From Pomacea canaliculata (Eukaryota > Mollusca > Gastropoda > Architaenioglossa > Ampullariidae): 64,000 nucleotides of DNA. The position numbers and the translations under genes were made by a program. The stretch is taken from the NCBI RefSeq assembly GCF_003073045.1, contig NC_037591.1, forward strand, positions 29,658,074 through 29,722,073, in the 5' to 3' direction. Shown piece after piece: positions 31,736 to 60,077 of the stretch; within the stretch, counting starts at the first letter, position 1, and each line of letters begins with the position of its first letter. Under the pieces are notes generated by a model. It searched no databases. It was not told the origin of the DNA and was given only the letters and a program-made list of their open reading frames with translations.

Positions 31736-31910
31736 CAGGGCTTCTGCTTACGCAAAAAATTGCGTATAGTACGCATTAAAAACTCGGAGGACCCCTTCAA
31801 TTTTCGTCAATGGGGTCCCCTTCAAATTTGGGCGAAGAACAGGGACCCCTTAAAAATCTGAAGAAGGGGTCCCTGGGACCCCAAAGAATTTAGCCTTAGC
31901 AGAAGCCCTG
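31736..31910. mobile_element. 175-bp MITE with CAGGGCTTCTGC inverted termini
   Basis: The element starts CAGGGCTTCTGCTTACGC and ends GCAGAAGCCCTG, a perfect 12-base terminal inverted repeat. ATACAT flanks both ends as a 6-base target-site duplication. The interior has several GGGGTCCCC-like inverted runs and no coding capacity. A second, right-truncated copy lies at 40385-40540. The superfamily is not certain. Confidence 0.75.
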
Positions 31911-32325
31911 ATACATTATAGCAAATTTTCATTGTCACGAGTAATGATATCCATTTCTACTTGGTGTAAGTATAATGCATGAAGAACAAGATTGTCCAGA
32001 AATGACATAGTCTGTGTTCTCCATGTGAAAAAAACTTTGTAAGAATTCTGTTGGAGTTACCTCTTTCTATTTGGATTTACCAAAACATGTGCACTTTCAA
32101 TATGGTTTCGGAAAGGACCAGTTGTTTTCTGCTGATTTTATACTTTTCTTTCATGTCTATTTTGCCATATTCTATCTTGTTTAATTTTCTATTAAATATT
32201 TTTAAGTAGGCTATTTTAATACGTTCTAGAGTGAAATGCCCTATCTCACCTTTGTGTTGGAAAGGAGTTTCTGCCAAGCAAAATAAAGTTAAAATTAAAG
32301 CTAACTTCTAAGCCATGGCTTTTTC

Positions 32326-32331
32326 TTTATT
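32326..32331 (-). terminator. Probable SLC35F6 polyadenylation signal
   Basis: AATAAA on the minus strand only about 16 bases past the TAA at 32347. If this signal is used, the 3'UTR is very short; otherwise the last exon may splice onward at the GATG|GTAGGT donor near 32368. Confidence 0.4.
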
Positions 32332-32346
32332 GTCAAATGTTTAATA

Positions 32347-35300
32347 TTATGAAAACCATAGAAACCTACCATCAGCCACAGCATTGTGCTCAAGATTAAT
32401 TGCTTCAGCATTTGGCAGTGGTCCAGCTGGACGTGGGACTTCTGGAGGTCTGCAGACAGCGCACAGGGGCAAGACATCATTGTATATCATCATACCAATG
32501 GGCACTAAAATGAAGCCAATGATCTGAGGATAGAAGAACTTCTGCCATCCTAGGCGCAAGGATATGGCCCAGATGATTAGATCATGGTGGACGTCGATAG
32601 TGATGCGCGTGGCCGAATCATGGCGGTTGCGCACAAGTCTGGTGCCAGCATAGTAGTATATCACTTTGCTGACTACTGATCCTGTTATGCAAAAGATGCT
32701 AGTTTAACAAATTTCATACTAAAAAAAATTATTATTTTAGAACTGAATGATGATATATAGATAGGTGTTACTGTTGTCTAGTTTATTCAGAATGCTTCCT
32801 AAAAATAAATTAGAACACACAAACACATACAATTAAACTGTTATAATAATCAAGGACAAACAAGGAGTATCAGACTGAAAACCACATATTGCCTTTTTCC
32901 AACATTTTCCTTGATGCTGTACTAATTTATCAATGTAAATGGGTTATTTTCTTTTTCAGACCTATCTCACCCATGATATTATATGTTGTTTGTGCTTCTT
33001 GTAAAAAAATGGACAATTAAGAAATGAATAAAATTAAGCACATTCTGGGGACAGAGAAGCAACCAAAACACTGCTATGGAATTAAAGTTGTGGCATTTAC
33101 TGAAAAGACTGCAGATAAAAGGACATCCTTGTTTATCTGAACTTCATGCTTGTGAAATAGCATATATATTGCAGAACAAGTTCATGCATGCACATGTTTT
33201 ATACACACATAAATAAAGTGCACACAGGAATATCTTACCAACAACACAAAGGGCCAGAATCCAGCTGCTGCGCATCTGAAGGAAGGCATCCTTGATATCC
33301 TCAATTCGAGAGTTTGGAAGTTTGCTGAAAGGCCCAGAGCTCACGAATGAGAATGGAATCAGGAGAGTGATTGAAACAATGGCCCCAAACAACCCTGTGG
33401 AAAAATGGAAGCAAAATACTGCAGTAAGTATTTACAGTTTATTTTGTTTTTAAGAAAACTCCTCCAGTGATTAAGTTACTGCATTGTTCAAATCATATTT
33501 TTTTTCAAAGACAATGTACATTCATCCCTGTACTCAGATACAGTGCTTTCAGCTTCCTTCTGCCAATTTCCTTTTATTCTTGCATTGTTCTCTTTATAAA
33601 AAGTGAAACAATAGGAGATGCACATGCCCAAACATCAGTAATGGACACCTTCCAAACTGAAAACTGTCCTGACATTAATTTCAGAAGTGTCTGATACAAT
33701 CTGAATATCTTCAAGCAATGTAAATACAAATTGAAAAAGAAAAATGAAATGGAATATATTTAATTTACCTTCAAGACCTACTACTCTTAGGGGATCAATA
33801 GAGTGTTTATCCATGAATTTCTCTTCGTAAACAATCTGCATGGCAATCATGATCTGTGACATCACGATAAGCAAGTCACCTGAAAATAGTCAAGGGCAGG
33901 TAGATACTTGACGCAGTACCAACATGTATATGTGCAAAATATACCTTTCCTCCACCAACACACACACACGATCACACAAGCATTTTTACACACACATATG
34001 CCACTAACAGCATGCTTCAACATTACTATGCTCAAGTATTACCTACACAATCAGTCCAAAACTCCAAATGAAAATATTTTTACCTGCTGCAAGTCCATAA
34101 TGGTCATACCCCCTGGGAGTGTCATAGACATAATCTGTCATGCCAATAAGACCAAGTCCAACAATAACCATGAAGATGGATACCCACATGTATTTTGCCA
34201 TGTGTTTGGACAGGAAGGCAACTCTCAGTAGTACTGTGAACAGTACTGCTGCACCTGAAAAAACAAAAGGTTATAATGCAATTACACATAATTGTAGTTT
34301 GCAGTGCAACTATAAACCTACAAACAAATGATACGGAAAGAATCAACTATCAAATGTCATTTTTATGCTACAAAACAGTTAATTTCTAGCTTTTATTATG
34401 TAATGAAGTGCAACTAAGTATAGATATAGTGTGGCTAGCACTATCATTAAGTTAAGGTGACCAGACGTTTCGGGGGCGAAAGCGGGACACGTGCCGATGA
34501 TGGTGTCATCACCAAGGAATGCCGAAAAAAGTGATTTTTAAAGACAACCGGGACATTTGATGGACTTGACAGAAAGCCAGAAAGCGGGACATTGGGCGTC
34601 CTGCCTGATGAGCAGGCGGGACAAGAGGTCAAAAGCGGGACGTCTGGTCACCTTAATTAAGTGTAAAGTCATGTAGGCATAACAAGGGTTATTAAAGCAC
34701 ATAATGTTATTTTAGAATAGTAAATGAGCATATTCAAAAAGAGTACTGACTACTGCTACTTGCAGAGTATGAAAGCTCTGTGGCTCTGTGGCTAAAGAAA
34801 AGTTATAAACAATAACTATTGTAAATATCATTCAGGACTGACTCAATGTAACTGGTAAAGATTCCTCTGATAAACTGCAATAAATTATTACATTTTATTG
34901 TTTATATTTAGATACAAAGCAATAAAGTTTTTGTATGCATGAGTATATAGACATACACACATTTGCATGCACAAACAACATACTTCTTTTTCATGCTAAA
35001 AAATATAAGGAAACACAATGAATTTTTTTTTCTTATGCACAAGGAAATGAAACAGATATCTAACACAAATGAGGAAAAGTGCATGCAGCTTATTTTGGCT
35101 CACTGATGGGTCTCAATTACTTCAAATTTATTTCCTGGTTATATGTCTCATAGAGCAAGAAGACTTAATTGTATCTTTAATTTAAAAGAATCAAGAATGG
35201 TTATTAAATATAGATCAAATATGATAGCAATGGCATAAAATAAACTATGCATACACACATTTGTAACAGAGAAAACACAAAAACCCAAATCTACTTCTGA

Positions 35301-37452
35301 TGGGCTTTTTAATAAATCCATACACTGGCATTCGTATTGATTTTACACCAACTTACTTCTGATCATCATGTAGCTGGAATTGTATGACAGCCTAAGTGCC
35401 ACATACAGCAGTGCTGTCCTGGAGAGATCAAAAAATGCCGGCACAAGGAAAAGAAACTTGTTGAACTTCCTTTGATCAACTGGTCGGTTGTGCCAAGCTG
35501 GATTATTGGGCTGTACTTCTGCAATTACATAAAATGAAACTGAAAGCTACAATCACAATGAGATATTTTGCTTTGGATTTTACTTTAATTGGGAAAAAAT
35601 AATTAGCATTCTGTTATCTTGTGCACATCCAAAGCAAATATTGTCATGTCATTTCAAACTGTTTTAAGACTTGCTATCCACTTAAAATAAGAGCCGCTAT
35701 CAACTGGTAATAAGACCAGCTATCAACTTGGAAGAAGACCAGCTGTCAAGCAGGTACTTCACTCATCATTGTCATCAATAACAAACTGTCATAAACTCTT
35801 TCTACATCACTGATTGAAGTCTGTTTACCATTATTAAGCAATGGCACATCATCATCATCATCGGCATTATCATTTTCCTGAATGTTAGGCTCATCATTGT
35901 TGAGAATAGGAACATCATAAGCTTGCTGTCTCTCTGCAGCATTCTCTTGCGCCTGATTGTTTTCCCTCGCTATGGCAGGTGTGATGATAAGCCATATAGG
36001 AATGCACAGAGCTTGAGCTATGAACTGGAAAGCCATCTGTACAAATAATGACAGGAAAATATTTAAGTAAGAAAATGAGACTGGAATTACATTTGGCATC
36101 AAATGCTTACCTAAAACTAACCTGAACCAATTACTGTGAAGTTTCAAAATGCATTGTGAATTTTTAAATCACTTTTTTGTGGAAAAGCATTACTACCTGT
36201 CCTATTAAATTCTAACTTCTGGTGTCCCTAAAAGCCACAACATAATAATAATAAATGCATGATTTAAATGCTACATACTCTCATTCATAAAGAGTGTGCT
36301 TTAAGCACTTGAGACAAGAATGAGACATACATAGTCAGCAAAAGTGTATCTTCTTTGCAAATGGAATTGTTTCTCAGTAACTGCAATCTTGAGCGATTTT
36401 CATCAGACATCATTCATTGAAAATATTTTATCTTTTTCTTTTTTAATGTTGTTTCACTGTGTGTCCAATTTTTAGTTTCAATGGTATTGTTCACATCTAA
36501 GGTCATTGGTGCGAAACAGAGGGATTGTGCTTTTTTGTGATTAGCAAACTGTCAGAGAAAAATTCCAGCATTGTCTATGGCAGAACATGTCCTGGCAGGA
36601 GAATTTGTTTTATTGAATTCAGGCGAACATTTAGCATTCTATGTGTGAAAGCATATTAATTATAAGTAATAGACATTTGACATTAATTGTACCCTCAGCA
36701 GTCATGTACGTCTTGTCTTAAATTATTATTTTTGATTTATTAGCGTTATTACGTTTTACTTGAATTGAGCACTCTATATATATCAATAAACAAAATGTAA
36801 ATGCAAGTGCATGCATCTGTCCCTTTATTATTGTTATATATACTGTTCTTGCTACAGCAAGTGAATGAAGAACGGCAACAATTACTTCTGCTCGATTTCC
36901 CTGTGTTAAAGTGGGCCCATATACTTTCTGTTTTCACCACTCGATCTGTGCTGCTGGGGTTTTTATATAGGGACCATATACTCACCAGCATAAATGGATG
37001 CTCAAAGGTGTGCTCATGGAAACCTGGTGTTCCTGTTGCGTTTATCTGTTTGGCAATTCTATGAGACAAAGACATCTAGACTCGATCACTAGTCATTGTA
37101 TGAGCCATTCGAGAGGAATATTACAGAAGTGGGAAATCTATCCTTTCCACCTCGTTCATATACTATTAGCTATATTGTGGTAACTAACATAAATTTTTTT
37201 GCATTAAACGTAAACATCTGCAAAGTACATTTCCAAAAATGAAAGTTGTAAAACTGCTCTATATATAAAATCTTAATGAAAAACGGCACTTAATTATAGT
37301 TTACTTTCGCTTTTACTCTCAGCAGCGATCTACTAATATATAATACTATATAGTAATACTATACAATACTCTACTTACTGAGGGGTTATAGAGAAAATTG
37401 TTCCACTAGCCACAGTAATGATGCTCAAAATTACGTCTTCCAAGACACCCAT
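32347..37452 (-). CDS. SLC35F6: SLC35F6-like drug/metabolite transporter, eight exons
   Basis: Minus-strand exons are 37452-37379 (ATG), 37058-36986, 36036-35829, 35518-35357, 34254-34084, 33879-33769, 33394-33239 and 32681-32347 (TAA). All borders are GT..AG, all phases match and the frame is clean over about 425 codons. The product resembles SLC35F6 throughout: HTFEHPFML, FLVPAFFDLSRTALLYVALR, MMIRSAAVLFTVLLRVAFLS, GDLLIVMSQIMIAMQIVYEE (then KF), LRVVGLEGLFGAIVS, YYYAGTRLVRNRHDSATR and LGWQKFFYPQIIGFILVPIG. This is the EamA/DMT fold with about nine or ten membrane segments; the human protein is reported in lysosomal and mitochondrial membranes, substrate unsettled. Exon 3 encodes an unusually long acidic loop (DNADDDDDVPLLNNG). 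The last exon has a possible donor (GATG|GTAGGT), so the final seven residues are uncertain. Confidence 0.92.
34452..34656. mobile_element. 205-bp inverted-repeat element with TTAA ends, in an SLC35F6 intron
   Basis: The left end TTAAGGTGACCAGACGT and right end ACGTCTGGTCACCTTAA are perfect 17-base inverted repeats. The interior repeats GCGGGACA-type motifs and does not code. If TTAA is the target site, the ends would be GGTGACC/GGTCACC, as for a piggyBac-like non-autonomous element; a hAT-like origin with imperfect duplication is the alternative. It lies between SLC35F6 exons 4 and 5. Confidence 0.65.
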
Positions 37453-37641
37453 TTTGATGTCTTTGCTATCAGCGAAGTACTTCCAACTGTGAGTCACTAA
37501 ATTTCTTCCCGGTCACCTTTATTGTATGCAACCAAAATCCCCCAAAACATCAAATAAACTTCCCTGTGTACGACGAAGTGTGGGGGAAAAAAAATAAAAC
37601 ATTTAGGGATATATAGAAAACATAATAATTCTCGTTCAGCT

Positions 37642-37713
37642 GGCTCGTTGGTCTAGGGGTATGATTCTCGCTTAGGGTGCGAGAGGTCCCGGGTTCAAAT
37701 CCCGGACGAGCCC
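37642..37713 (+). tRNA. tRNA-Pro (anticodon AGG)
   Basis: A 72-base cloverleaf without an intron. The acceptor stem is GGCTCGT/ACGAGCC, followed by discriminator C. The anticodon loop is CTTAGGGT with anticodon AGG, and the T arm is GTCCCGGGTTCAAATCCCGG. Box B GGTTCAAATCC is canonical. The sequence appears the same as the vertebrate tRNA-Pro(AGG) that I remember. A run of ten T just downstream is a strong Pol III terminator. CCA is not encoded, as expected for a nuclear gene. Confidence 0.97.
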
Positions 37714-37718
37714 GATAA

Positions 37719-37730
37719 GTTTTTTTTTTT
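37719..37730 (+). terminator. Pol III terminator of tRNA-Pro
   Basis: Poly(T) tract six bases after the tRNA 3' end. Confidence 0.85.
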
Positions 37731-38692
37731 CGCCTATGAATTTATGTTAGTTCAACCATAATCAAGAAATTGTTACGTTTCTATAAATACTATTCCAAGT
37801 GTAAGAAATTAATGAATTGAAACGATATGTTTATCTTCTGTTTACCCATTTTTTATTTACCTTTTATTAGTGACTTAAAAATTTTTCTGTTACCAGATAT
37901 TTTTAAAAATACAGGCTCTAGTTGTTTCAACACAAAAAACAATATGCATAGATTAGTTCATGCTAGTGTACATGAGCATTTCTATAGTACAGTGAAAACA
38001 CGGTTTTCACTTTTTTTTTCACTCTTGAAAAATTTTTCTTGGATTTTGTTGGTTTTCTTTGTATTTCATCAGCATGCCCACATGATCTCACAGTTGTATG
38101 CCAATCTCTTGTAAATGTCATTTATTCTTTACACTAGTCTTTTATATTAATTTCTTATTGCTTTAAGTATTTAACACTATATATTCTCAATAACTGTGTT
38201 TTTGATATGTATTTTGGAGTGTCTAGAACGAATAAATTGGATTTACATTGATTGATGCAGAAATAATTTAATTTCATTAAGTCTAGGAACGGATTATCAA
38301 CGAAAACCTTGGTTTAACTGTATATGGAACTAAAGGACAGTCATTTAGCCTTTCTGTTTAGTACTTGAATTCTTGATCAACACCCCCCCCTTTTATTTTA
38401 ATTTCTACAAATGTATTTTTTCTGTTGGGAAGCTGTTTAGAAATCCTACAACAAAGGATTTGCAAATCTGCTCGGGCCTGTTTGCTTCCGTGTACACCAA
38501 TTTCATAAGATATTATTTTTTTTGTTTTATACATATGATAGTCTTGAGGCTTACATTATTGCAGTATCCATAAAAAACAAAAGTTTGATATCATGCATTT
38601 TTAATTATCTTTTCAGTCAGAAATTAAATTTCAAAACAGAATGGCAAAACTGCACAAATTCAGCAGTAGCAATGACTTAATTCAAAGACATT

Positions 38693-39410
38693 TTAACTGC
38701 TGAAAAATTCATGCTTTTCTTCTAACAGTGCTTTGTACTCCTTTTTTATACATGAAAGTTTATTTTTTAAGTTTGCAATTTCGACAGAGATTTCAGTTGC
38801 CTGCTCGAAGCAAGCTTGACTGTGCCGAAGATGAGGAGACACAAGATAGCCAAACAAATGAATAGGATCTTTCGGACCTTTCTTACATCCTTTTTCTTCA
38901 TTTGCATTATTTTTGTCTTTGTCTTTACTTATTGAACTCTCAACACTATCTGATGAACTCTTTATTCCCTTGGTTTGTTCTTGAGGTTCACTTCCACCAC
39001 AGTCTTGTTAATATTACGCCGTCTACTGTTTCACCTGAAGACTTGCTATCATCATTTTCTTCTGACTTGTCTTTTTGTACCCTTCTATTAATAAGAGTCA
39101 TTTCAATAGCTGTCAAATTCTTCTGTCCATGTTTAGTCTCCTCATCTGAGTCTTCATGGTCAAAATCCAAGATCTCTACTTCTTTCAGTGCTTGCATTTC
39201 GAGTCCATTCTCAGCAAACTGCAGCATTCCTACATTTCGAGTACCACCCATTGTGTAGCGAGCTCTGGAAAGACTAAGATAACCGTCTCGCATGTGTTGC
39301 TCCATCTTTGCTTGTTTTGAACAATATGTCAAGAGCATCAAAAAAATCTATGACAAGCTTATCTAGATTTTGCACAGTAGTTCTTTGCCTTTGTCCATTG
39401 TGGAAAAGCT
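38693..39410 (-). CDS. CCDC115: CCDC115 homologue (V-ATPase assembly factor), with frame breaks
   Basis: Minus-strand coding from 39410 (acceptor tgttttcaag) to TAA at 38695-38693. Pieces matching CCDC115, in order, are: NLDKLVIDFFDALDILFK (N-terminal helix), MEQHMRDGYLSLSRARYTMG (the strongest match), VGMLQFAENG, a long Glu/Asp/Ser/Lys linker, then PKDPIHLFGYLVSPHLRHSQ and a C-terminal coiled coil ending EEKHEFFSS. CCDC115 is the animal relative of yeast Vma22 and acts with TMEM199 in V-ATPase assembly at the ER/Golgi. Two single-base breaks interrupt the frame: an extra A in the AAAA at 39315-39318, and an extra base between about 38996 and 39012. The 5' end is unclear: an ATG at 39398 would need one more A at CAAAATC, whereas an upstream exon at 39766-39673 joins in frame without correction. 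Confidence 0.8.
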
Positions 39411-39672
39411 CTTGAAAACAAACAGTAGGCTGTACTGATAAATATTTAATATTTAAGTTCTACGGTAAAATGTTTTTTTTAAATGCTGCAGTGCAAAAAA
39501 AAATATAAATAAAATAAAAACCAAAACAAACAACAAAAAATAAACAATCTAAATTCAAACTCATAATCTATATGCTAGTGCTAAAATATTCAAAAACAAA
39601 ATCCTGGTAATCAGTGAAGGTAACAGTTGAAGTATTTAATCACGGCAGGGGCACATTAAGTTATAAAAGTAC

Positions 39673-39766
39673 CTACATCAGCAAGTATATTTGACTTTAT
39701 CATGAATTCCCTTGCCTTCTGTTTGTTTTTAGTTCGGACGTCTCCTTGCGATTTGTCCTCTGTCGC
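39673..39766 (-). CDS. Possible upstream exon of the CCDC115 homologue
   Basis: An open frame encodes a lysine-rich KATEDKSQGDVRTKNKQK segment, then MIKSNILADV, ending at donor GTAG|GTACTT. Its phase-1 end joins the 39410 exon without any frame correction. No similarity to the short vertebrate N-terminus is seen, so this may be lineage-specific or spurious. An ATG within it (MIKSN) could be the start codon. Confidence 0.4.
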
Positions 39767-40384
39767 CTTCCCCACAGGTCAGGGGGGAGTAAGTCATAGA
39801 ATAAAAATAAGGAATACCACTTTATATGAAGTGAATTGTCTTGAAATCAGATAACTTGGCACAGTATTTAATTCAAAGAGAACTTTTATTTCTTTTTAGC
39901 TGTTATTAAATTTTAGTCTTTGATATGAGAGTGCAAGGACACCACTCGCAGGTTCACACGAAGCAAGAAATGGCGAAAAAATGCGACTACCACATATTCT
40001 TCACATGAGTAATGACGAAGTGTCATGCAGTTCACATTTATCGTTACCACAATCAGAACTATTATAGTGTAGAAGAAGAGTCCAGGAGACTGATTAAAAT
40101 AGTGCACTGAAAACTATATTTATACTGCTTTGCTATTGTAGTGTCAGAGAGGATGAACGAATTACAATAAAAAGAGATAACTGTGTTTCTTTACTCTGAA
40201 TGCACTAATAGTTTTCACCCTATTCGCAATAGACTGGACAAATTTTGCAGAAAACAGGACATTAAGTTGTTTGTATGTGATTAACAACTGTTGACCTTGC
40301 AGGCTATCCATAATCACAATTAGTAATGCTCAGTATTATTGAATTTCAGCACTTTTACACATTTGTTTTATATTCCACCTTTAG

Positions 40385-40540
40385 AAGGGCTTCTGCTTAC
40401 GCAAAAAGTCGCGACAGTACGCATAAAAGTTCGGAGACCCCTTCAATTTTCGTCAATTGGCCCCCTTCAAATTTGACGAAGAACAGGTCCCTTAAAAATC
40501 TAGAAGAAGGGCCCTGGACCCCAAAGAAATTTACCTTTCA
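40385..40540. mobile_element. Second copy of the CAGGGCTTCTGC MITE, right end lost
   Basis: It begins AGGGCTTCTGCTTACGCAAA and follows the 31736-31910 copy for about 150 bases, ending after ACCCCAAAGAAATTTA without the closing inverted repeat. Compared with the first copy, runs of G and C are repeatedly shorter, for example GGGGTCCC against GGGCCC and GGGACCCC against GGACCCC. Confidence 0.65.
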
Positions 40541-41417
40541 ACCTGTTTAGATAATATATTATGCTATGGATAGTTTCAAATTGACTAGCGCAGTATTTGG
40601 ACACATTAGCACTTGCAGCTTAACACCATCCTTAAGTTTTTATAACAAGGAGTCTCATAAAGCAGGGGTCTGTAAATAATCTGCAGATTGAGGAGCACCA
40701 AGCAATATTCCTCACCATTGTTCATCTTACATAAATAAAAGACTGCTGTCCCAGAAGATAACAGTGGAAGGGGTTTGGTCATGGTGTGTAGAAAATAACC
40801 TAAGAAAAAAGACAATCCTTTGAGCCAGCCACCCGATGTCTCAGGAACTCGACCAATACCAGTTAAAGAAATGATAAAAAACAGTTGAACCAAGAAAGCA
40901 ATTATAAAGACACAATGCAGAATATGTTAAATTTACATAGCTCAATAATGTTTGATGAGAGTAATCACTTTGATATGTTAAAAAAAACACCAATAGTGGA
41001 GGTCTCTAAAATACAACAGGCTGTTGAATGTAAAATAACAACAGAAAACAGCCATTAAGCCCCTTTTTAAAAAAAAAATCTTAGAGTGTGAATTGTTTAA
41101 AAACAAAACAATGGTAATAATCCAAAAATCCATTGCATTCAAATAGCCAGTTCCTTAGTTTGTTGACAAATGATTAAACATATCAGTCAAGGATTACAGG
41201 TTTTCTCTTGGGATGATGGGGTTTCCCAGAAGGATTACAGGGTGGTTATCTCAAGTAAACTGCTTTGAATTAGTGAAATATTGGATGTTATATCATGCTT
41301 CATATTACTTTAATGTATTAGAAATTTTAGAGTAACATGAGATCGACAAGGAACAAATTGATGATATCTGTGTATCTGGCATGCACAGAAACATTAATGC
41401 TTTCTGTTTTATGTTAG

Positions 41418-43059
41418 GAGCAAGTACGGTTTCAACAGAAGTTATTACTGTTTGGCCAGCGAAGAGCAAATTTCAAGACTGTAAACCCTGACAGCCGTAA
41501 AGGTTTTAAATTTATTCAATACAGCCAGTATATATAAATAACAACATTTATATGCTTATTTTTTTTTGTTATAAACAAAAACCCACCATACCTGTAGCCC
41601 CCTTCTAACTGATCTACCTATTACCCACATGTGTATACATATTTTTGGCATTGTTTCCTGCTTCTTTAATAAGATATGTGTGAGAGAGAGATAGAAGAGA
41701 AAGTATGAGTGACGAGAGAAACAAATACACAGCTTTGTTTCGTGTTGCTGGTGTCCAGTTTTAAACTTGAATAGTTATTTACTGTTAGTTCTATTTCTTT
41801 TTCTCATCAGCTGCAGAAAATGAAAAGGCATTGAGATTTTTAAGTACACCAAAGCTCCATTTATAAAAAAGCGCCCAGGTGATGCGCAACATGTTTGGAG
41901 ACTACCGTAGAGAAATGAAGGTGTTAGAGAAAGAAGAGTGCAGCAGGTAAAAAAACATTTGTGACTTTCTTAATGTGTTTTCTTTACATATGTAACTGTC
42001 AGGAGAAAAGTTAACAAACTGAAAATGACAGTGGGAATTGTTCAGAAAACAACATTGAATCTGTACTGTTTTTTACTGCCCATGACAAGAAAAAAGTACG
42101 ATTTTTTTCTTGCTGTTTTATTAAGTTGCAAGAGCCAAACTGTGTGCTGCCAAGAAAAAAGAACATCAAATAATTTTCCGGAAGTAGTCTGCATTATACT
42201 GTCGCTTCTTACTCTTTCTCCGGCTGCCATGGCAGGCAGCGAAAAAAAATCCAAATAGAACAGATAATTCAATCGTTTCGTTTGGTGAATAGTGACCATT
42301 TTCAACTGCAAAGTATATATTCTATCCTATATATAGTCGCATTTCACACACAACCCAAGAGTTCCATCTAGACATAATAACCACAGATAGGATCGGCTTG
42401 GGCCGTACAAAGTATTCTCCCATATGTGATTAATTTTTGCTGCCCTCAGTACACAACAAGGATAAAAGTTTCCGCCAGGGTCACCGAGTGTCCAGACCCC
42501 AGTCATCAAGTACAAAACTCACACACAAAACACAAGACGCTTCATATCTTTCTGTTAAGGACAGTAAGTCTTGTATTTTCCCAATAACTGACATGAAAAA
42601 GGTTTGTTGTCTTCTTTTGCCCCTGCGTTCTTCCAGTCCTCTTATCTCACGAACAACAAAAAATTTTTCTCAGGGTTTTGTTTTGCTGTGCTCTCCAGGA
42701 AATATTTTGCGTGCTCAGTACAGGGACAGAAGTTAGGAAGATGGGAGTTCCATCCCTCATCCTTTTCTAATATGGATGCTCTTTCTTTGATTGCCATTGA
42801 TTGCTGTAAAACAGCAGCTGCAAATGCAAGTGCAAATTGTGCTTTAAGTTTTGACCATCTCCCAGAGAGTTTAGATTAACTTTGATCCTTCTGGTATGCA
42901 GCACAAGATTGCAAAGATACAGAGAAAAAATGGAGGACCCCAGTCAAACAGACTGCAAGAATTCAAAGATTTTGTGATGAAGTCAATGGCAAAGAGTTTA
43001 GATTCAATTTTGCTCTTAGGAAGCTGATAACAGCACAGAGATGCCAAGCCAATTCTTAA
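41418..43059 (+). CDS. C8orf33 / UPF0488 family homologue, 5' incomplete and frame-broken
   Basis: Four plus-strand exons are visible: 41418-41502, 41811-41946, 42450-42563 and 42902-43059 (TAA). Similarity to human C8orf33 includes the conserved core KKRQVMRNMFGDYRREM (after two corrections), HRVSRPQSSS in the third exon, and the C-terminal GKEFRFNFALRK before the stop. The first exon encodes KLLLFGQRRANFKT and joins the second in phase (DSRKAAENEKALRFL). The family is small and of unknown function. Breaks: one A appears missing in CCAAAGCT (41851-41853) and one C extra in GCGCCCAGG (41874-41876). They restore each other but put TAA in the uncorrected frame. The third exon also needs a one-base shift relative to the second. 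The start codon and 5' exons were not found. Confidence 0.65.
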
Positions 43060-43770
43060 ATATTGGACCAACAAGATTCTTTGCATTTGTGTGAATACCT
43101 ATAGTGTAATCTTTTATCCAAAAAAAAGGAATTGACATAGAAAAGTGCTGCTGTGTGCATTGATCTTTTATGAAGCAAGGGAAACTTGCAATGCAATAGT
43201 TGGAGAAAGCAGTTTCTTGTGTGCCTGATCGTGTGTACAAGAATACTTTTTTCCTTTGTTCATGCATGACACAACACATACAACCATTAAAAAACCACTG
43301 TAACCAAGAATATTACTTGAAATTGTTTTTATTTAAATCATTTACATATCTGTAACATCCTACATTTGTAATATTTTCAGTGCCCTAGTTTATTCCTCTT
43401 TTAAAAACAAAATGTCGGATAAATGTGACAAAAATTTAACAGGACGTGCTAAGTATTCTCTGGAAAGTTTAAGACGATATAAAGCCATTATAAAAGTAAA
43501 AACACCGACAGACCACAGAGCATTACAGCAACCTAGTGACAAAGAGATAATTCTTTCATTCTCTGCTCACCAGTGAGCTGTACTTCTGTAAAGTCTAGAA
43601 AACATGCAGGATCGACAAAGGCATTCTCTCAGGTTATTTTGAAGCACTTCGTGGTATCAGCTTGTAGTTCCTCAAAGAACACACTGGAAGTCTACCTTCT
43701 GTTCATCTCTCTTTTCATTCCCTTCTCTCTCTCTTTCTCTCCGTTTTTACTAAATTCATTCATTGTATGA
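43060..43770. other. Convergent 3' interval between the C8orf33 homologue and LRRC34
   Basis: The two genes end toward each other 711 bases apart. TTTATT at 43328-43333 is a possible LRRC34 polyadenylation signal on the minus strand. No further exon is seen. Confidence 0.4.
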
Positions 43771-46700
43771 TTACCTAGTCAAACAAAGAGTCATGTCATC
43801 ATCCAACTTGACCACTGCGAGGATTGAGTCTCGCATCTTGCCAGTCTGGAACATCTTCACCATACTAGGACCATAATAGAAATTTCTTCTTATCCCATGC
43901 GCTAGCTCACATAAGTATGTGATCCCATCTACAATGTATGGCTTCACATCTTTTTTTGTTTCGCAATCCAAACGACCAGTTTATCAAGCTGTCAATGCCT
44001 GTGACACAAAAAATATGAATTATATGAGAACATCTGATAGCTGATGACTTAACAATACATAAAAATAAGAAGCAAAAGCAAAACAAAATGAAACATCTAG
44101 ATAGTAGCTGAGTATGGAAGTTTAATGCTGGCTTCAATGAGGTATTTATGTACCTAGTAGAAGAATATTATTTAGCTCAATGTAAGGGTAATAATAATAA
44201 TAAAGTTATTTGTATAGCACTTTCCCACCATTAAAGGAAGCTTAAAGCACTATTACCAAAAAGAAAACATAAGACAAATAATAACACAAACAAAAATAAT
44301 GGATGCTGGACTTAAAAACTATAAGTTTCAGTGTTCTTATCACTATTTACACCCATTCCCTTCTTTCCAGCACTGGACTTTGAAGTTGTTCTTCGTAAAG
44401 CAATGGTATAAGCAATGTCTTGAATTTCACATGTAGACCAGTTAAAAAGAAAGATTTGTTAGAAATATTGAATTTGAAGTTTCAGGCATCACAGTTGAAA
44501 GCAGAACACAGTGTTGGCATTGAATAAGCGAAGGTGACAGTAGTCAGATACACGCTTGAAGCAAGATGCAGAATGACACAAATGAATCTAATCACCAGAC
44601 CACAGTATGAAGTGCATAGATCTAGTATCTAATCTACACAGCATGCAGCAATTTATGTGGTTCGTAAATGGAAAACGGCATGGTCCACAATGCTAGAACA
44701 GCTAAAAGTGTCAGTAAATGAGGCGCAAAATCTGGTACAGTCAAAAGTCCAAAGCAACATGGAGAACAGGAGACAGAAGCCATCTGAGGCAGAAGATGTC
44801 TATTATAAGAAATGATGCAGCACAAGCACTGAAGAACAATCCATAACAGAGGCCAATGGTGCAAAAAACATCAGAGGAGTCGGAGAAACCAAAACTCGAC
44901 ATTAATCCACAGATGAGAAAAAACGACAGAGCTGGTCCCCTCCAGCCAGTTAAGGAAAGGGACATCACTCTCCAAAAGGGGTAGGAAATGCAAAATATCA
45001 GTTTTAGCATATATATATTATTATGAACAGCAAATACAAACAATACAAAGTGCATACTATGCACACTGGTTCCTCCAGTTTGTTGCCCATATAAAGACAT
45101 TTGTCAGATCGTGTTGTCTTCATTGCATCTGCTATGGCACACAGTCCATGCTGCCAATTGTTTGCTGACCACGGAAAGGCTAGAAAGGAAAGAAGTAGCA
45201 AGCTTCTTAAACATTTGCAGAATCTGCAAGTCTTTATTGTATAGCAGCAACAAGAATTTCTCTATTTGAGTGGGGATATAAGTACAATGTTGATGTGATT
45301 AGTTTTTTGTGAATGTACATTCTTCACTGATGTCAATAAGGATATTCAAGTGGCTTGCCTATTATTTCACTTAAGTGAGTCAGTAAAACTGAAAATACTC
45401 TGGTTTGGAAAATCCTTTTGTCAAGTTACAACTTAATTGTGGCTGCTTTACAGTTCAGTTAAAATTACTTGATTTCTCGAATGGCGAAGAACAATTCATG
45501 TGTGATTAACATGGTGTCTTTTGAAACAAACTCTGTAGGTCAAATCATAAATACACTCTAGAAAGGAATACTTTTGCATGCTGAGTGCAGTGTTAAAAGC
45601 AGTGTTGTTTTAGAGAGACAGTTGAAGCCCTTGACAAGGTAGCTGCTACTGCCAGTAACATCAGACAGTGTTAATGAGTTTGCCTGAGGGTTTTCAGAAT
45701 ACAGCCATATTTTGCAAAGTTATCACCTTTTTGAATCATATGTGATAATCAAAAGCTAGTACATGTAGTAAACAATGAGTACTATTCATGCCACTGTTTG
45801 CTCATTTTTCTTTATGACTGGGTTCTTCCACTTTCAGCAGTATCAACAAATACAAAGTATAGTTTTAAGAAATAAAAATATTGTGACATGAGACTAGATG
45901 ATAACTTGGAGATGAGAAAAGGAAGCATAGAAAATAATGATCAAATTATAACAGCAATAAAAACCCTCTATAAGATCAATAGTTGAAGTAAGAAAACTTG
46001 AAGCTGGGCAACACTACTAAATGAAGAGATACTGACCACCGCAGGTTGGTGTTAAGGCTGGCCAAGGCTTCAGCAATGTGCATGGCACCATCATCCTCAA
46101 GTCTGTTAAAACCAAGGTCCAGTATACACAGTGCTGTGTTCAGTTTCAGCACCTTTGCTAACTCCTTCACACCATCACGTGTGATGCGATTGCTAGATTA
46201 AGTCAAAACATGATTATGGTGTAGCATGGGTGATAATAACTTGGTGAGTACAGTACCATTTGCAAACATACAACTGAGTTAACCCGGTTAGCAGAGTTTG
46301 ATGTCGTTTATGCACTACCAGACCTTGAAGAGTTAACTGTAGAATGCAGATGATGCAAACATGATAAGCCTAGTAACATGCAACAGGAAATATACAAGTT
46401 AGCTAAGAAACAGATATTAAGGCAGACATACAGATTAACAGGCAATTAAACATACCAGCTGAGATCCAGGTAGGTCAAAGTGAAGTTCTCCATTAAATTT
46501 CCGCTAGTCGATGCCATTCCAAAGTCTCTCATGTCATACTTCTGAAGATGGAGTTCTTCTAATGTCTTATTCACCTGAAATTGAGAAGTAAAAGTGATGG
46601 TATACGTTGACATTATCATATATATTGACAGAATGCTGCACCAAGTATTGTAATATATCATAGTGTGTAAGACTGAGCACAAACAAGAATACAAGTGTGA

Positions 46701-49700
46701 GTGCATACATAGCTGTTTATGCATACACATTCGTGAGTTCACCTCATACAAAAATACTCTCTTTAAGTGTACTGTGTGCATTGAAATTCACAGGAAAAAA
46801 TTAAGTAATGAGACATTAAGGAATGGGATGTTAAGAGACAACACTTTTTGTGAGCATGGTGATCATCTCTCTCTCTCTGCCTTTCTTTCTCTAACTCTCT
46901 AAGAAGTCTGGTAAATCACACAGGTCAACCAGCAAGTGTTCACACCTCTGGCCATTCAGCAGTTCACTTCCCATCATTGCAGGCATAGTGGCAAAGATAA
47001 ATGTTCTGCTACTAACTAACCTTCAGCATGTTAGCAAAATGAACCACAGGCTCCTCCTGGACTGTCGTAAGAAGTGGGCGGCTGACATCGATGACTCTGA
47101 TAGAAGTATTGTTGCGGAGTACTGTGGCAAGAGCTACTGTGCTCTCCATCCTCTGCACTCAGATTAAGAAACAACTGGCTTATATATTTTTGAGTAAGAA
47201 TATGTAATCAATGTGTTTGCTGATGCTACATTCATAATAGTTACTAAGGTGGGGTTTTTAACAAAAACGTTATGATGAATGCACACTTTACAGACAAAGC
47301 TTCTAATTCATTCGTTAAAATGAGATTTAAAAACAGCTACTTTATGCACTTACTTTTATTTGGTATGGTGATTTTATGTCATTAAGTATAACTATTTGCC
47401 AATCTGATGCCAAAGCCATTTTGCACAAAGAAAGATGTGTATCTAAAGTTGCACAAGTTGTTCCTGCAATTCTTTTCTTCAGTTTCCAACAAAATAGTGG
47501 TGTCTACAGCACAGTATTCACCTTTTGTGTGATGGGAAAATGTGTTATCTCCCTCAGGTAATGCAAGCATCTTTCTTTGCTCATATATAACATTTTTATA
47601 GCTCCTGATGCAGTGAATCCTATCTCAACTTCAATCAAGCAAGACTATGGCAATTTTGCATTTTGGATTTCTTTGCTGTTTTAATAAGTGTAGGTTACAC
47701 AGGAAGCAAGAACAACCCTTGCTAAGCTGTCTTACTTCAAATGAGGTGGATGTATGTGGCATCAGAGTTTTCCTCTTTTTGTTACATATCTGTCAGTTGG
47801 TGTGAATAACAGTTGCTGGGTTGCATGTGAGGTCTTGAACATAAGTCAACAGTCTCAAGTGGAAGACAACTTCATTAAGTTTGAGCTGAACAGTCAACTT
47901 GCCACGAGATCAGCACATTAATATTCATAAGACCCTACATACACACCAGCCATACCATACAACCAGGCAATTTTTGGAAGCTGAGAAACTTAAAACAGTT
48001 CCACTTAAGACGTCATGCAAATCAGACCTGATATTGTATTCCATGTTTGGAATTTTATTATTATTTTAAAAAAAAAAAAAAATCAAGCGATACTATCTAG
48101 TCCTTCCTATGCCAATCATTGGTTTGGGCTTGGTCATTAAATGCTTATATGAAGAATGTACTGAATATGTCTGCACACTATAATGATAGGTTTTGAATGT
48201 TAAGCCAAAACAAACGTAACTACCTCGCAGGCCTGATGCTTGATGCTATACTTTGGCAAAATAGTTTATTATTCAAAAATAAAAAATGATGCCATATCAT
48301 GTCTCTCCCATGTTTAACATCGTTTTGTGCTTGACCCATTCAAAGCTCAAAAGATGCATTTACTGATATACATCATCTCTGTACACAAAAGACTTGCTGT
48401 GTTAAAAATCTAAATGCATTAAGATAAAATGCAGTAGATATTTTCGAAGCAAGAGAAAAATGGAATAAATAGCTATAAAGAATTAAGATGTAAAGAAAAA
48501 TGTTTTCAAATACCAGATCAGCTTCACCAACATCAAGATGCTCCAGGGTGGTATTGATCTGTAAGGCTTGGGCAAAACTCATTCCTCCTTTGTTGTCTAT
48601 TTTGTTTCCATTCAGTAATAGCACTTTCAGCATTTCATTTATCTGTCATTAAGAGATGACAATGAGCAGACCTTATTTGATTGTCAAGAGTTATTCATTG
48701 TTTCATGAGGAGGTGAAGTGCAAAATGTTTATGCTGTAAGGTGACTCGAAAAGCATAGGTTAATTAAAGATTCCCTTTGATCTATAGATGCATACAGATA
48801 AGTGTTAAAAAAAGTATAATAATAACTTCAAGTCCTGAATAACTTTTGAAATTACACAAGTTCATATTATGCTCACATGCAGAGATCGTGCTAGTGCTTC
48901 TGCCCCATCTGGTCCAATTTCATTGCACATTAAATTAAGCCTTTGCAATGTTGTATTGTTCTGTTGACAAAAATAAATTCATAAAGTAAAGATACACACA
49001 GGTTACATGTATGTTCTGTGTTTAAATATAAATACATCCATTTGTATTTTGTCTTTTAACTAAGATTCTTTTTCTACTGTATCTAGAATGGTTTATACTG
49101 GAGAATAAAAGTAGATAGATTGTCAGGAAAACTATCATAGCGGACTGTAATTGAATGCAGAAGATGATGTATCACTAAAAGATCTTCCACAATCAAAACT
49201 CTTTAAGCAAGAAATATAAACCATGGCAAATGCAAAGATCAGTCAAGAGTATACTTATTAATTTCCCAGTAGCATACTTTAGTCACTCAATAAAATCATT
49301 TTTCGTGAAGAAAATTCACTTTGGTCATTAAATATCTTTAGCAAATCAGGCAAAGGTGTAATTTCTATTTACTGTGTAGTAAATATATGATTTTTGCTCT
49401 TTTCAAGGATTGGTTAGCAGAATCCACAACAGGGGCCAAATATCCATGAACTCAGAAAATTGTTATGTTAAATAGAATTCTTTAAAAGGTGCACTAGAGT
49501 ATACTTATTATATAACAATAGTCTTTTGATATTTAATTGCTATCAAAAGTTAAAAACAGGTTAGTGGGTTCTTCCTTTCCCACACCTCAATACTTTCAAA
49601 GAGATGATTTGAAATATGAACATTTTTTTTATTCATTTCTTTATAATCTTCCACTAAATGCTTCAACTTACTTCTAACATTGCAGCAAGGATTTTAGCAC

Positions 49701-51206
49701 CCTTATCACAAATTAAATTGAAGCGGAGATCAAGAGATGTGATGAAAAGATTCTTTAGCAGAACCTTCTGTAGCAGAATGCAGTCATCATCATTGATGCG
49801 GACATCTTAGCAGGTGGTTGTTTCCAGCCAGGTAAAGGTGCATGCTGGTCTTAAACTCCCTACAAAACAAAGTCAGCTTAATATTCAGTATATATGGATT
49901 ATAGCTATTTGTAACTTTCTGAAGTAATTCTATCTAAATAACTAACTACCTTGGAGATACTTGTAGCTTGACTTAAGTAACATTTTATCTCTGTTTACAT
50001 TTTTTTATTCTACAGTTATTTACTTGTTTTACTAGTTAACTTAAACTTAAATAAAAGACTGATATGGGTTGCATTGAAAGGTCTTGAGATCAGGAATGGC
50101 TCTTACACATCTCAGCAGGTTTTACTCTATTAAAGACAATTTTCTTGAAGCAACAATTTTGAAAAGAAGCAAGAACAGCAACTACTAGAGGATGTTTACT
50201 TGCTGCTGGCACGTCTTCATTTTACAACTGTTAATTTTCCATTTTATTTCCATTGATTTTAATATATAACATTTAAAATTAAGCCCAACTCAGCAAGGAT
50301 TTCAGAACAAGCAAAATGGGATGTCACACAGCATCACACTTACATTGTCAGGAGCAATGACAGTTCATTTTTAAAAAAGAAACAAACAGAACTGAATCTT
50401 TGTATACTGACCATTACACTAACTTAAACAAAGCCATTAATACCAAACAAAGAAAAATGAAACATTGTTCATATATTGATCACACATTAAAAATAAGTTC
50501 AAAAGATATGAATTCAAATGTACAAGAGCTGTGTGGTAGAAAAAGCTAAAGATTTAGTAAAAAAAAAATGTAATAACTATATTACACGTATATGAAGGAC
50601 AGACCTATCTAGCTATCTATCCATATTTTAAAAAAATAAGAAAACTGAACACAATTAATAAGGTATGTTAGGTAACTATTGCACTGCTTTGTTCAAGATA
50701 AAATGGAAAAAACAAGAGGTTAGATATCCATGATCTAATAAGAAGCAGCTATAGTCACACAAACTTGTTGAAGATCAACTTCATGTACAATGTTTATAAG
50801 TTGCAACCATCTCAAACAGGAACACTCACTCTACTCACCCTTTTGCTTGTCGGCTATTTTCCAGATAAAAATCAGGACTGATTATATATCAGGGTTATAA
50901 AGGTTTATAAAGTCCTATATATATTTATTTATAAATAAAGAGAGAGAGAGATCTAGAGACTGGAGAGAATATAGACACATCTTACAAGTAACTTTTGAAG
51001 AATCTTATTTTTATAGTGCTTGTAATGTTTTCCTTGTTTACAATCCAAGAACAATTATATGATTTTCAAATTTTGTTTCATTTTGTTCTCCGATGTTTGA
51101 ATATTTGAAAAATAAAACTGCTTTTACTATCAAACTTAAATGTTTTGTAAAGTGCATTGAGTCTGGCAGATGCTGGAAAAACATGGTCTCAAATGTACTC
51201 ATTCTT

Positions 51207-51237
<31 letters not shown>

Positions 51238-51562
51238 TTATTATTATTGTTATTGAACTTAAATTAATTTATTGTAATGTAATTGGTAAAGATACAAAAA
51301 TCTGCAATGCCTACATGTAATATTGAAAACACTGTTATTATTGGCAATGTATGTGGTTACTTTATTTTAAAATCAGAAACCTAATTGATGCTTAATGAAG
51401 ATTTTGTGATTTATCATTTAAAACCATAAATAATGTAGCAACTTACATTAAACATTCCTTTTCTTCTCGCTTGAGCATTTTAAGAATGTAGGGATGTTGC
51501 TTAACACCCAGCTCCTGGCAGGCACTTTCAAAACTGAATAATGTTGAATGGATGTCAGACAT
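43771..51562 (-). CDS. LRRC34: LRRC34 homologue (ribonuclease-inhibitor-type leucine-rich repeats), nine coding exons, frame-broken
   Basis: Minus-strand coding exons are 51562-51447 (ATG), 49859-49672, 48960-48877, 48642-48514, 47152-47021, 46574-46456, 46192-46037, 45179-45058 and 43998-43771 (TAA). All borders are GT..AG. LRRC34-like pieces in order are: SFESACQELGVKQHPYIL, MHLYLAGNNHLL, ITSLDLRFNLICDKGAKILA, TTLQRLNLMCNEIGPDGAEA, NGNKIDNKGGMSFAQALQIN, IRVIDVSRPLL, VNKTLEELHLQKYDMRDFGM, CNRITRDGVKELAKVL, ILDLGFNRLEDDGAMHIAEA, and the C-terminal DVKPYIVDGITYLCELAHGI. Each LRR is about 28 residues. The vertebrate protein is reported in germ and stem cells and in the nucleolus. Frame breaks: a shift near 49804 after NNHLLR, an extra A at 45161-45163, and two opposite shifts early in the last exon (about 43992 and 43977) that expose TGA-TAA. 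Exons 1 and 3-7 are intact. A 5'UTR exon begins at 51634. Confidence 0.85.
44190..44262. repeat. AAT-rich repeat with a TATTTGTATAGCACTTTC motif
   Basis: A short AAT array followed by TATTTGTATAGCACTTTCCC and TTAAAGCACT. Similar modules recur in many marine invertebrate genomes. It lies in the last LRRC34 intron. Assignment is from memory of the motif. Confidence 0.4.
51203..51248. repeat. CTT/ATT compound microsatellite
   Basis: About eleven CTT units followed by four ATT units, in LRRC34 intron 1. Confidence 0.9.
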
Positions 51563-52126
51563 TGTGAGAGCTTTTTCTTGTCAAGTGGAAATCCAGAGGC
51601 GTTTATTTGACTGAACAACATATATATGATGCAGCTGCAAAAAAATGAAAGATCATAGTATTTAAAAAACCAGAGCACAAAACTAAAATTGAATGAATTC
51701 ATGACTTACTGAAAAACAGCAACTATTTGAGAAAAGGGTGAGGTTGAGGAAACGCGATGAGGTGAAAAGGAGGAATAGTGACATTAAATGGAGGGGAGGA
51801 TTGAAAGATTTGAAAGATGGACTGAGAAAGCAAACAGTATAAAGGTTTGAAACTCGGTTTCTTTGCAGTTATTTTACATAAAAAACACAAACCATAAATT
51901 GATCACGAGGCCTTTTGCTTTTCTTGTACTTTGCCAACAATTCTTAATTTATGAACTTTATAATATCGATTCAGCTAGTCAAGGGACATCTAAGTAATGT
52001 TTTACATGAATGATTTTGATTTTTTTAGTACCAAGCAAGAAGACGGTAGAGATAGTTACCTTTAATTTTTCTTTTAGGGGGATGTATTAAAAACTACTTG
52101 AACCTCAAAGACTATCCTTCCACACT

Positions 52127-52173
52127 TTGCTTACTTCTGTCTGCTATATACTTCCGGTCGTTGCTATAACAAC
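52127..52173 (-). promoter_or_regulatory. LRRC34 promoter with RFX X-box, ETS site and noncoding first-exon donor
   Basis: GTTGCTATAACAAC at 52160-52173 fits the RFX X-box consensus RYYNYY-N(1-3)-RRNRAC at every position. Two bases further along the gene, ACTTCCGG (52150-52157 on the plus strand) is a core ETS site. About 15-20 bases further, CAGAA|GTAAGC is a good donor that could pair with the acceptor at 51634, ahead of the ATG. The arrangement fits a short untranslated first exon. Confidence 0.5.
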
Positions 52174-52834
52174 GTGGAAAAGTGATCTCCCCTGATATCG
52201 AAGGAGTGGTACGTTTGTAGCCATTGAGAGTACGAATAAAAGACATGTCATATTGCAGGGTGTGTTTTTTTGTGTGGTATTATTATTGTTATTATAACTT
52301 CATATGGATGTAGACAATTTTTACTTATTTTATTTTTATCTTTTATCTTATTACTAAATGTACGACATTCGTCTAGAGATATATTTGTCTGTGATCCTTG
52401 TTTGGGAAAAGCATCGAGACTGATATGAAGGAAAATGAATTAAATCCCAGATGAGCATTGTGAGACTTAATTTAGAATTAAATGTACATTCGAAAATTAA
52501 ATCGCTGCATAAAACGAGTCCGTTGTGTGGCGGTGCCATATCCAGAATGCAAACATTCTCACTTGAGATAAGGATGAGAAGACTCAGCGGCTGCTAGTTC
52601 CTCAGCAACCACTAAGGGAGGCAATGCAGATAATGCTTTGTCAGTGATCTGCCCTTGAACTACAACAGTCTTACGAACGATGGTGGGTAGGGGAATCATC
52701 AAAAAGAAAAAAAGGATAAGGGTATACAATTTTAAATTTAATCTTAAAAGCGTTCACTGAGAGGCTCAGACATACTGGTGGATCACTCAGTAATAATAAT
52801 GATATAATCATAATCGTGCCAATTCACTCTAACG

Positions 52835-52900
52835 CAGGGCCGCCGAGAGCCAGCACGGGCCCCGGGGCAAATGATCGACCTATCCGGGCTCTTTGTAATT
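52835..52900. repeat. Fragment with a CAGGGCCGCCGAGAG terminus
   Basis: CAGGGCCGCCGAGAGCCAGC followed by GGGCCCCGGGGCAAATGA resembles the end of a hAT-like DNA transposon or MITE. No inverted partner is found, so only one end is present. Confidence 0.35.
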
Positions 52901-53964
52901 GTAATCGCATATTATATTTATAGTACATTATAATATGATTACAATTCGACTGTAACGTAATACAGACTGCAAACACGAAGACAAGTCCACAATTTAAGGA
53001 TCTATATCAGTTATTACTACTAAAACATAGAGTTGTTTATGCGTGAGTGGTTAGAAAATGAATAAAAATGACGTTAACGGATCAAACGTGTAATAATAAT
53101 AAATAATAAATGCAAAATTTGTAAAGCGTATACTCACACTACTAAGGATTATGCTCTTAGCCCTTAAAAACAAGAACGAAACATGGACAGCATACGAGGG
53201 ACAGGAAAACAACATATAAGCTAAAAAGGAATGAACGTACTAAACGAAGAAAAAGCAGAGTACTTTCTGGAGTTTGTGAAGAAGGTATTCAGGGCAGATA
53301 GCAACCAAGGAGTTACGATAATCAAGTCGAGACAGAACATACGCACAGACAAGATTGGCGGTAGCGTGTGCAGAGAAAATGTGGAGGATGGCGCTGATCT
53401 TACGGAACTGTTAACATGCAGACTGACAGACAGCTGTAACTTGTCTACTGAGGGTCATGTCTGCAGTAACGACAAATCCGGGATTTTGGACTGACGACGT
53501 GAAAGTGATGTTGGTGTCGCCCACCTTGCACTTGGGTTGATTGATGAGCGATGAACGATTTCTTCTAGAGCAGAAGAGGGGTCCGTTTTATCTTCATTAA
53601 GTTTAAGTTTGTTTCGTGCTATCCAGTCTTTGACAGATAGAACTTATGCACACCTGGAGCACCCGAACTCCTATACTGACAATTTTAAAAACAACTTTTT
53701 TTGTTTGTTTTGATTCTTCAAGGCTTTCAACAATGTACCGTGCCATTTGCTTGTTCAGAAATGAATTTGGATGAATGTTGATGCCAGAACTTCCTTGTGG
53801 ATTAGACATTATCTGATTAATTAACCTCAGTTTATTTGAAATGTCTAGTAATGTTATCTCTGATATTCTGTACACAAACATCGGCACTCCCTAGAACGGA
53901 AAGTACTCTCTCGTCTTTTTATTTTGTTTTTGTTTTCCTTGTACACGGCTGATTGTAGACACAG

Positions 53965-54965
53965 CTGATTGCAACAGTTAAATATGCAGATGACACCGGG
54001 CTTACGGGATTGATTATCAACAACGATGACTCCTACTACAGACAGGAGATTGATCACTTTGTAGCATGGTGTGCTGATAATTATTTAGAGTTGAATGTCA
54101 AGAAAACGATAGAAATGAGTGTTGATTTTAGGAAGGACGAGTTTGTTTTTCATGAAATACTTATTATGAAGAAGTAGAAAGACGAGCAGAGAGTTAAATA
54201 TATTCAGGAATAATTATCGATGATAAACAAACTTGGAAAGCTCGTGTAGATAAGGTTATTACGAAAGCGCATTTCCACATGTACTGTCTCAGAAAGTTAA
54301 AGTCTTTTAGAACTTGTGCAAATATTTTGCACCTCTATTATTTGCACCCTCATGACTTTTGGTCTAGCTTGCTACTGTGGGAACATTGCAAAGCGGGACA
54401 GGTACAAATTAAAACAAGAAAATTAAGAAGGCAGGGTTAGTTAGGAGGGAGACTGACCTAGGAACAATGTATGGCAAACTTTTCTGATCCTCAAACTCCA
54501 GATTTAGTCGACGACTCGCACTCACTGCGACAAATATCTGACATCCCACGCATACAGAGGAGTTCATAGCTCTGAAACTATTCGCTATATTCACTCATTT
54601 ATCCAATCCAGATAAACAATCCACAATAGGCAGGACATACGCATGAATTTAGATGGCCAGACTGAATGCTCCCTTTCCAGAGTGTCCGTTTATATTGATA
54701 GGTTGGAACTGATGTTACAGATGTATAACTCGTCTCTCTGTTTTCCTATTTTGAGTGGTAATATGGATATGTGCAGCTTTTTAATATCTGGGAGAGAGAC
54801 TGTAAGTGCTAGCGTAGATGAATTGGGTGTAGCTGGTTTATGCTCCGTTTTTATAGCCTGTGTTAATGATTTATGTAAAGTGATGTTCTCGTGTTACCGT
54901 TGGCAGCCAAAGCAATTTCCTTAAAAGGATTAATATAGATATTTTGTAATTTTGTATTTGTATTC
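53965..54965 (+). mobile_element. Degraded LINE: end of reverse transcriptase and 3'UTR
   Basis: From about 53977 the frame encodes VKYADDTGLTGLIINN, with the catalytic YADD at 53983-53994, then DHFVAWCADNYLELNVKKT and MSVDFRKDE. This is the palm and thumb region of non-LTR reverse transcriptases. Beyond that, stops and frameshifts break the frame, although FGLACYCGNIAKRDRYK is still readable. The 3' end (TTTTGAGTGGTAATATGG through AAAGGATTAATATAGATATT) is shared with the fragment at 31094-31241. The copy is inactive. It is CR1/Rex-like by general appearance only. Confidence 0.75.
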
Positions 54966-55023
54966 CAAGACATACAAGACACGAGTCCCAACGCTTTACA
55001 CTGAGGAACAAAAATTTACCCAA

Positions 55024-55141
55024 AATGGACAACTTAATCTACGATGGGGAACTTAGCATCCTGTCTGCAACACCTCAACTCTTCTCTGAGGATCTGCTGA
55101 CAGATAATAGTCATCGCACAGAGAGAAAGTTTGATGATACA
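55024..55141 (+). CDS. Possible first coding exon of an unknown gene
   Basis: The ATG in CCAAAATGGACAA opens 39 codons (MDNLIYDGELSILSATPQLF, then an acidic SEDLLTDN and basic HRTERKF) and ends at donor ATACAG|GTAAAA in phase 1. The composition is protein-like. Read through the donor, the frame ends after about 15 more codons. No partner exon was found downstream, and the segment begins only about 60 bases after the LINE. It could be a real first exon or chance. Confidence 0.25.
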
Positions 55142-55199
55142 GGTAAAAGCGATGAGTGCGATTTTGATGTGATTCTGGTGCTATAATAGTACTGATCGC

Positions 55200-60060: not shown

Positions 60061-60077
60061 TGCAGCTCTCACAGCAT

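Follow-up and report, generated by a model that had tools for sequence, protein, structure and literature searches.

Genes at the locus

The window analysed here is a stretch of 64,000 nucleotides from the snail Pomacea canaliculata (NCBI RefSeq assembly GCF_003073045.1, contig NC_037591.1, forward strand, positions 29,658,074 to 29,722,073); all positions below are counted from its first base. It holds three adjacent genes, CCDC115, a C8orf33 homologue and LRRC34, whose recognisable coding sequence changes frame at several points. A preliminary description, made from the letters of the window, preferred to read these breaks as uncorrected insertion and deletion (indel) errors in one assembly segment, and named local loss of the three genes as the alternative. 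Here we consider what the breaks are and how they may have arisen.

The family assignments themselves bear the marks of the breaks. The profile PF21730 (Vma22/CCDC115) is matched in two different minus frames, over profile positions 11-108 and 52-142 (11-108 and 87-142 when single open reading frames are used), and the 3' piece of CCDC115 has a weak match to a yeast-type VMA22 in the PDB (E 0.54). The match to PF15393 (DUF4615, C8orf33 family), at about 41813-41953, spans a stop, and the sequence on either side of it shares one frame. What is presumably the last exon of this gene was assigned by likeness to the human protein; in the window it gave no DUF4615 match and only a sub-threshold RGS match. 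The exons of LRRC34 match PDB chains 9fqr_MA and 8j07_w.

Neighbouring genes in the window read cleanly. The sulfotransferase runs for 317 amino acids in one frame, TMEM222 aligns over 164 codons and SLC35F6 over 303, both with 0 breaks, the second SLC35F6 exon being left unresolved by the alignment. Under a very lenient penalty SLC35F6 acquires three breaks for a gain of four score units, which we read as noise. The clean extent checked amounts to 784 codons rather than the more than 900 first claimed.

A second copy beyond the contig gap

The window contains no N, and its last base abuts a gap of 100 N at 64001-64100, the only gap in a 344-kb neighbourhood; the next contig starts at 64101. 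When the window, with 20 kb before it and 60 kb beyond, was compared with itself by blastn, positions 31194-63990 recurred in the same orientation and collinearly at 64129-101597 in the next contig. The alignment reaches base 63990 of 64000 on one contig and 64129 on the other, 10 and 28 bases from their ends. A genome search with a 601-base query from the CCDC115 region likewise returned a 98% match 32.8 kb downstream, just beyond the window, and four further matches of merely 53-56 bases at 84-86%, and megablast (E up to 1e-30) found no further match to the window in the 344-kb neighbourhood. The region 31194-63990 and its repeat are the unmerged overlap of two neighbouring contig ends. The contig join that had been suggested near 38 kb thus lies at 64001 instead.

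Identity between the copies ranges from 70% to 99% across the blastn blocks, and exceeds 95% in only three of the six blocks between 36.5 and 50.3 kb (97.7, 98.4 and 99.0); a good part of the shortfall is due to indels. The features concerned are collected in Table 1.

Table 1. Features of the window that bear on the frame breaks; "copy" is the repeat in the next contig
Feature	Position	Strand	Observation or basis
Repeated part of window	31194..63990	+	blastn self-comparison with flanks
SLC35F6	32300..37500	-	aligned without breaks in window (303 codons); not alignable in copy
CCDC115 (Vma22/CCDC115 family), read as one exon	38693..39398	-	breaks near 39372, 39315-39321 and 39005-39025; PF21730, copy comparison
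Indel-rich patch	39000..47000		copy comparison, per-kb table
C8orf33 homologue, upstream exon	41434..41503	+	absent from preliminary list; six indels against copy, where in frame; copy comparison
C8orf33 homologue, DUF4615 exon	41811..41947	+	two cancelling breaks near 41847 and 41874; PF15393, copy comparison
C8orf33 homologue, probable last exon	42905..43046	+	resemblance to human protein
LRRC34, last exon	43779..43998	-	many breaks; in frame in copy; alignment, copy comparison
LRRC34, exon 8	45058..45179	-	several breaks; in frame in copy; alignment, copy comparison
LRRC34, exons 2-7	46037..49859	-	0 substitutions against copy; cancelling pair near 46498-46514; two-base difference at 49807; alignment, copy comparison
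LRRC34, exon 1	51452..51570	-	identical in both copies; copy comparison
Last contig bases before 100-N gap	63991..64000		blastn self-comparison, gap listing

Frame breaks read against the second copy

The frame breaks are present in the letters of the window, and all seven sites first listed coincide with an indel between the window and the second copy. That list was far from complete: across the exons of the three genes, comparison of copy with copy over 2,234 aligned bases yields 42 indels, 41 of them not a multiple of three, and 12 substitutions. Only in exons, through the reading frame, can it be told which of the two copies is at fault. The breaks do fall mostly in base runs, as described: within 39-47 kb, 127 of 178 single-base losses lie in runs of at least two, which hold 46.9% of bases, and 60 of 178 in runs of at least three, which hold 22.0%.

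LRRC34 gives the clearest reading. In an alignment that allows introns and frameshifts, the window's copy aligns over 376 codons with three breaks, placed within exons near 49807, 45151 and 43981, for a score of 670; the second copy aligns over 380 codons with none, for a score of 805. Under three penalties the second copy returned 0 breaks and 805 every time, against 652-686 for the window. The claim of intact splice sites holds for the seven introns between exons 2 and 9, which are GT/AG in both copies, with the limit that the aligner permits GT/GC-AG introns only. Over 926 bases of exons 1-7 the copies show no substitution, whereas noncoding sequence of 46-52 kb has 57 in 5,041 bases (p = 1.3e-4). 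Elsewhere in the gene the second copy is longer, by about 4.3 kb at approximately 80957-85222 and by 1.1 kb at 85529-86601 (window numbering), both inside introns, and the first of these stretches includes tandem repeats at about 83788-85080; the extra length fits either a haplotype difference or a collapsed repeat.

For the C8orf33 homologue, the second copy is in frame in both exons that show breaks in the window; the probable last exon is split over three frames in the second copy, and the window keeps mostly to one. In CCDC115 the second copy keeps one open frame from the ATG past the window's break sites, and at the 3' end it seems to jump frame where the window stays in frame; at a penalty of 10 it too shows two breaks. 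The count of breaks for this gene rests on the comparison of copies rather than on protein alignment, which under lenient penalties against the human protein invents breaks (up to ten). Within the unconserved CCDC115 linker the aligner also proposes introns 49-114 bases long, a candidate that was rejected, as the second copy reads through without them. The same observation bears on the idea that the breaks reflect programmed frameshifting or tiny unrecognised introns: the offered linker introns are what speaks for it, and a copy that needs neither device to stay in one frame makes it scarcely credible.

Damage thus lies in both copies but at different places, with SLC35F6, the last C8orf33 exon and the 3' end of CCDC115 faulty in the second. 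SLC35F6 there cannot be aligned, scoring 41-61 against 488-492 in the window. Because nearly all of CCDC115, the C8orf33 homologue and LRRC34 codes in frame in one or other of the overlapping copies, it is most likely that the genes have stayed intact and that the frame breaks are assembly errors. Local loss of all three genes in this lineage would account for the many breaks in the window's copy, and yet we consider it highly improbable, since all three stand largely in frame 30-40 kb downstream in the same assembly. Moreover, alignments at penalties of 10 and 14 use no in-frame stop, and the single stop used at a penalty of 20, in the window's C8orf33 homologue, stands in for a break. Nor does the locus look like that of a pseudogene, which would offer no intact reading and would carry substitutions beside its indels as often as expected. 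The second copy therefore supports the preliminary preference for uncorrected indel errors over gene loss. The picture of a single faulty segment is right in that an error-rich stretch exists; this stretch, however, belongs to one half of a duplicated overlap whose other half also carries errors.

Distribution of indels and substitutions

Differences between the copies change character along the overlap. From 39 to 47 kb there are 269 indels and 66 substitutions, against 61 and 263 from 47 to 59 kb (Fisher p about 1e-59; 42027-42694 excluded from the 39-47 kb counts), and of the 269, 204 are missing in the window and 65 in the second copy. Per-kb figures, which are not taken from the MAFFT block alignments because these misalign the noisy ends, describe a gradient. 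At 31-36 kb, where the second contig starts, substitutions reach 3-10% and indels at least 100 per kb, which is raw-read quality. Between 39 and 46 kb substitutions fall to 0.5-2.5% and indels are two- to seven-fold more numerous, most of them bases lost singly from the window. Few indels accompany the substitutions of 0.9-5.9% at 47-58 kb, as between haplotypes, and at 59-63 kb indels climb again toward the contig end. Divergence is thus at raw-read level near either contig end and about 1% in between. The window's errors are densest between 40 and 45.5 kb, where most 500-bp bins lack 14-26 bases, against 0 at 47.0 kb. The sharp change that had been placed at 37.5-38.7 kb does not appear, with just 2-8 missing bases per 500 bp from 37 to 40 kb.

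Indels at 39-46 kb take little account of function, with 36.0 per kb in coding and 45.0 per kb in noncoding sequence. Taken together, function-blind indels and conserved LRRC34 exons 1-7 argue for alleles of working genes overlaid by errors, and not for old duplicates in decay. Two larger differences lie in the same region: some 144 bases at 40386-40529, absent from the second copy and 85.8% identical to window 31737-31897, may be a short interspersed repeat that only one haplotype carries, and between alignment anchors the 668 bases of window 42027-42694 face 251 in the second copy.

Origin of the duplicated region

Judged from the sequence, this part of the window is very probably the error-rich end of a contig that overlaps the next one, a false duplication with leftover indels in which none of the three genes has been lost. 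For Pomacea canaliculata the assembly account of Liu et al. (2018, PMC6129957) reports a heterozygosity of 1-2% and describes PacBio reads, the assembler smartdenovo and correction by Pilon, with alternative contigs dropped only if they were shorter than 200 kb and aligned over more than half their length to a larger contig. Overlapping ends of long contigs would pass such a filter. A single 33-37 kb region of a heterozygous snail would be present in two neighbouring contigs, one version in each. The assembler would have left the versions unmerged, and scaffolding would have set them next to each other across a 100-N gap, with the result that the region appears twice. That the versions are two haplotypes of one locus is our inference, and the 2.21% substitutions at 47-59 kb fit it, as do the large differences in intron length. 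In the window's version the uncorrected small indels would sit chiefly at 39-47 kb and, once more, beyond about 59 kb up to the end; in that of the next contig they would be dense over the first 5 kb and sparser as far as about 77 kb. As the window's patch covers CCDC115, the C8orf33 homologue and the last two exons of LRRC34, the frame jumps would fall there. Correction presumably failed for want of unambiguous reads or of depth: short reads may have mapped ambiguously to the two versions, and Pilon may then have left the indels in place.

Several observations sit uneasily with this account. The contig end is 17-25 kb away from the patch, and the stretch at 47-49 kb, equally similar to the second copy, is nevertheless clean; ambiguous mapping of short reads would consequently be insufficient by itself, and low long-read depth in the patch would be needed as well or instead. 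Substitutions at 39-46 kb are equally frequent in coding (11/1,056) and noncoding (49/4,818) bases, which alone would also fit decay and which we put down to base errors in the patch. Finally, the break at 49807 is located in the clean part of the window. It had been listed with the error segment but sits in a low-indel stretch, and one haplotype may carry it as a genuine LRRC34 allele with a two-base frameshift. No other coding break occurs in 47-59 kb, where the copies differ as haplotypes do (2.21% substitutions and 5.1 indels per kb); its length of two bases and the absence of any further difference in exon 2 also speak for an allele. Against this, the window lacks bases at four indels in 49.5-50.0 kb and the copy at none, making leftover error at least as likely; a true allele at this one site strikes us as unlikely, if less so than the alternatives that concern the whole locus.

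The chief of those is a true tandem duplication of 33-37 kb followed by reciprocal decay, of SLC35F6 in the second copy and of CCDC115, C8orf33 and LRRC34 in the first, with contigs breaking at the junction. The copies are indeed direct and adjacent, most genes retain one readable copy, and assemblers break contigs at real tandem duplications too. Against it stand a patch whose differences are indels rather than substitutions, raw-read-level divergence at both contig ends against about 1% between them, and a gap exactly at the junction. Both copies of CCDC115 and of C8orf33 seem to be broken, though not at the same sites, and LRRC34 exons 1-7 are free of substitutions. A real duplication is for these reasons improbable.

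Comparison with known assembly faults

A false duplication formed by an unmerged contig overlap would have close relatives in the literature. Kelley and Salzberg (2010, PMC2864568) describe duplicated overlapping contigs, in which, as here, adjacent contigs align only at their facing ends; the overlap layout asks for an alignment within 300 bp of both contig ends, and the distances here are 10 and 28 bases. Their filter, as given there, wants more than 95% identity, which only the inner parts of this overlap reach because both contig ends are error-ridden. The heterotype false duplications of Ko et al. (2022, PMC9516828) are alike in having two versions of a heterozygous region, a gap between them, an enrichment in errors and false extra genes. 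That study separates heterotype from homotype by read depth and k-mers, and the likeness drawn here comes from sequence alone; unlike the cases it describes, the false copy in this instance also yields false pseudogenes. Long-read indel errors that fragment genes (PMC12007338) similarly leave frameshifts resembling pseudogenes, although the tool presented there addresses small genomes, and here the genome is that of an animal and the errors lie in a duplicated overlap. Literature searches combining the species name with false duplication or LRRC34 turned up no report of this locus; the papers listed for false duplication dealt with other molluscs.

At this gap four genes (SLC35F6, CCDC115, the C8orf33 homologue and LRRC34) are shown twice and one copy or both carry false frame breaks, so that gene counts and pseudogene calls at the locus would be wrong. 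The figures in Liu et al. (2018, PMC6129957), namely 745 contigs, 440,071,717 bases and a mitochondrial genome of 15,707, imply 722 such contig joins if the assembly's 24 sequences comprise 23 nuclear ones plus the mitochondrion. Overlaps between long contigs being unfiltered, the fault seen at the one gap examined may recur at others.

Other features of the window

The frames of SLC35F6 gave no Pfam match at E up to 0.5, nor did those searched at 19.4-22.1 kb, and the single Pfam match at 11.2-12.1 kb fell below its cut-off. A 229-codon open frame at 19477-20166 (minus strand), likewise free of Pfam matches, is probably a coding exon of an unnamed gene. On the plus strand at 53959-54440, two open stretches resemble by eye the end of the reverse transcriptase of a long interspersed nuclear element, and the frames searched at 53.0-55.5 kb had no Pfam match at E up to 0.5. 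Between SLC35F6 and CCDC115 lies a tRNA-Pro gene with anticodon AGG (37642-37713, plus strand).

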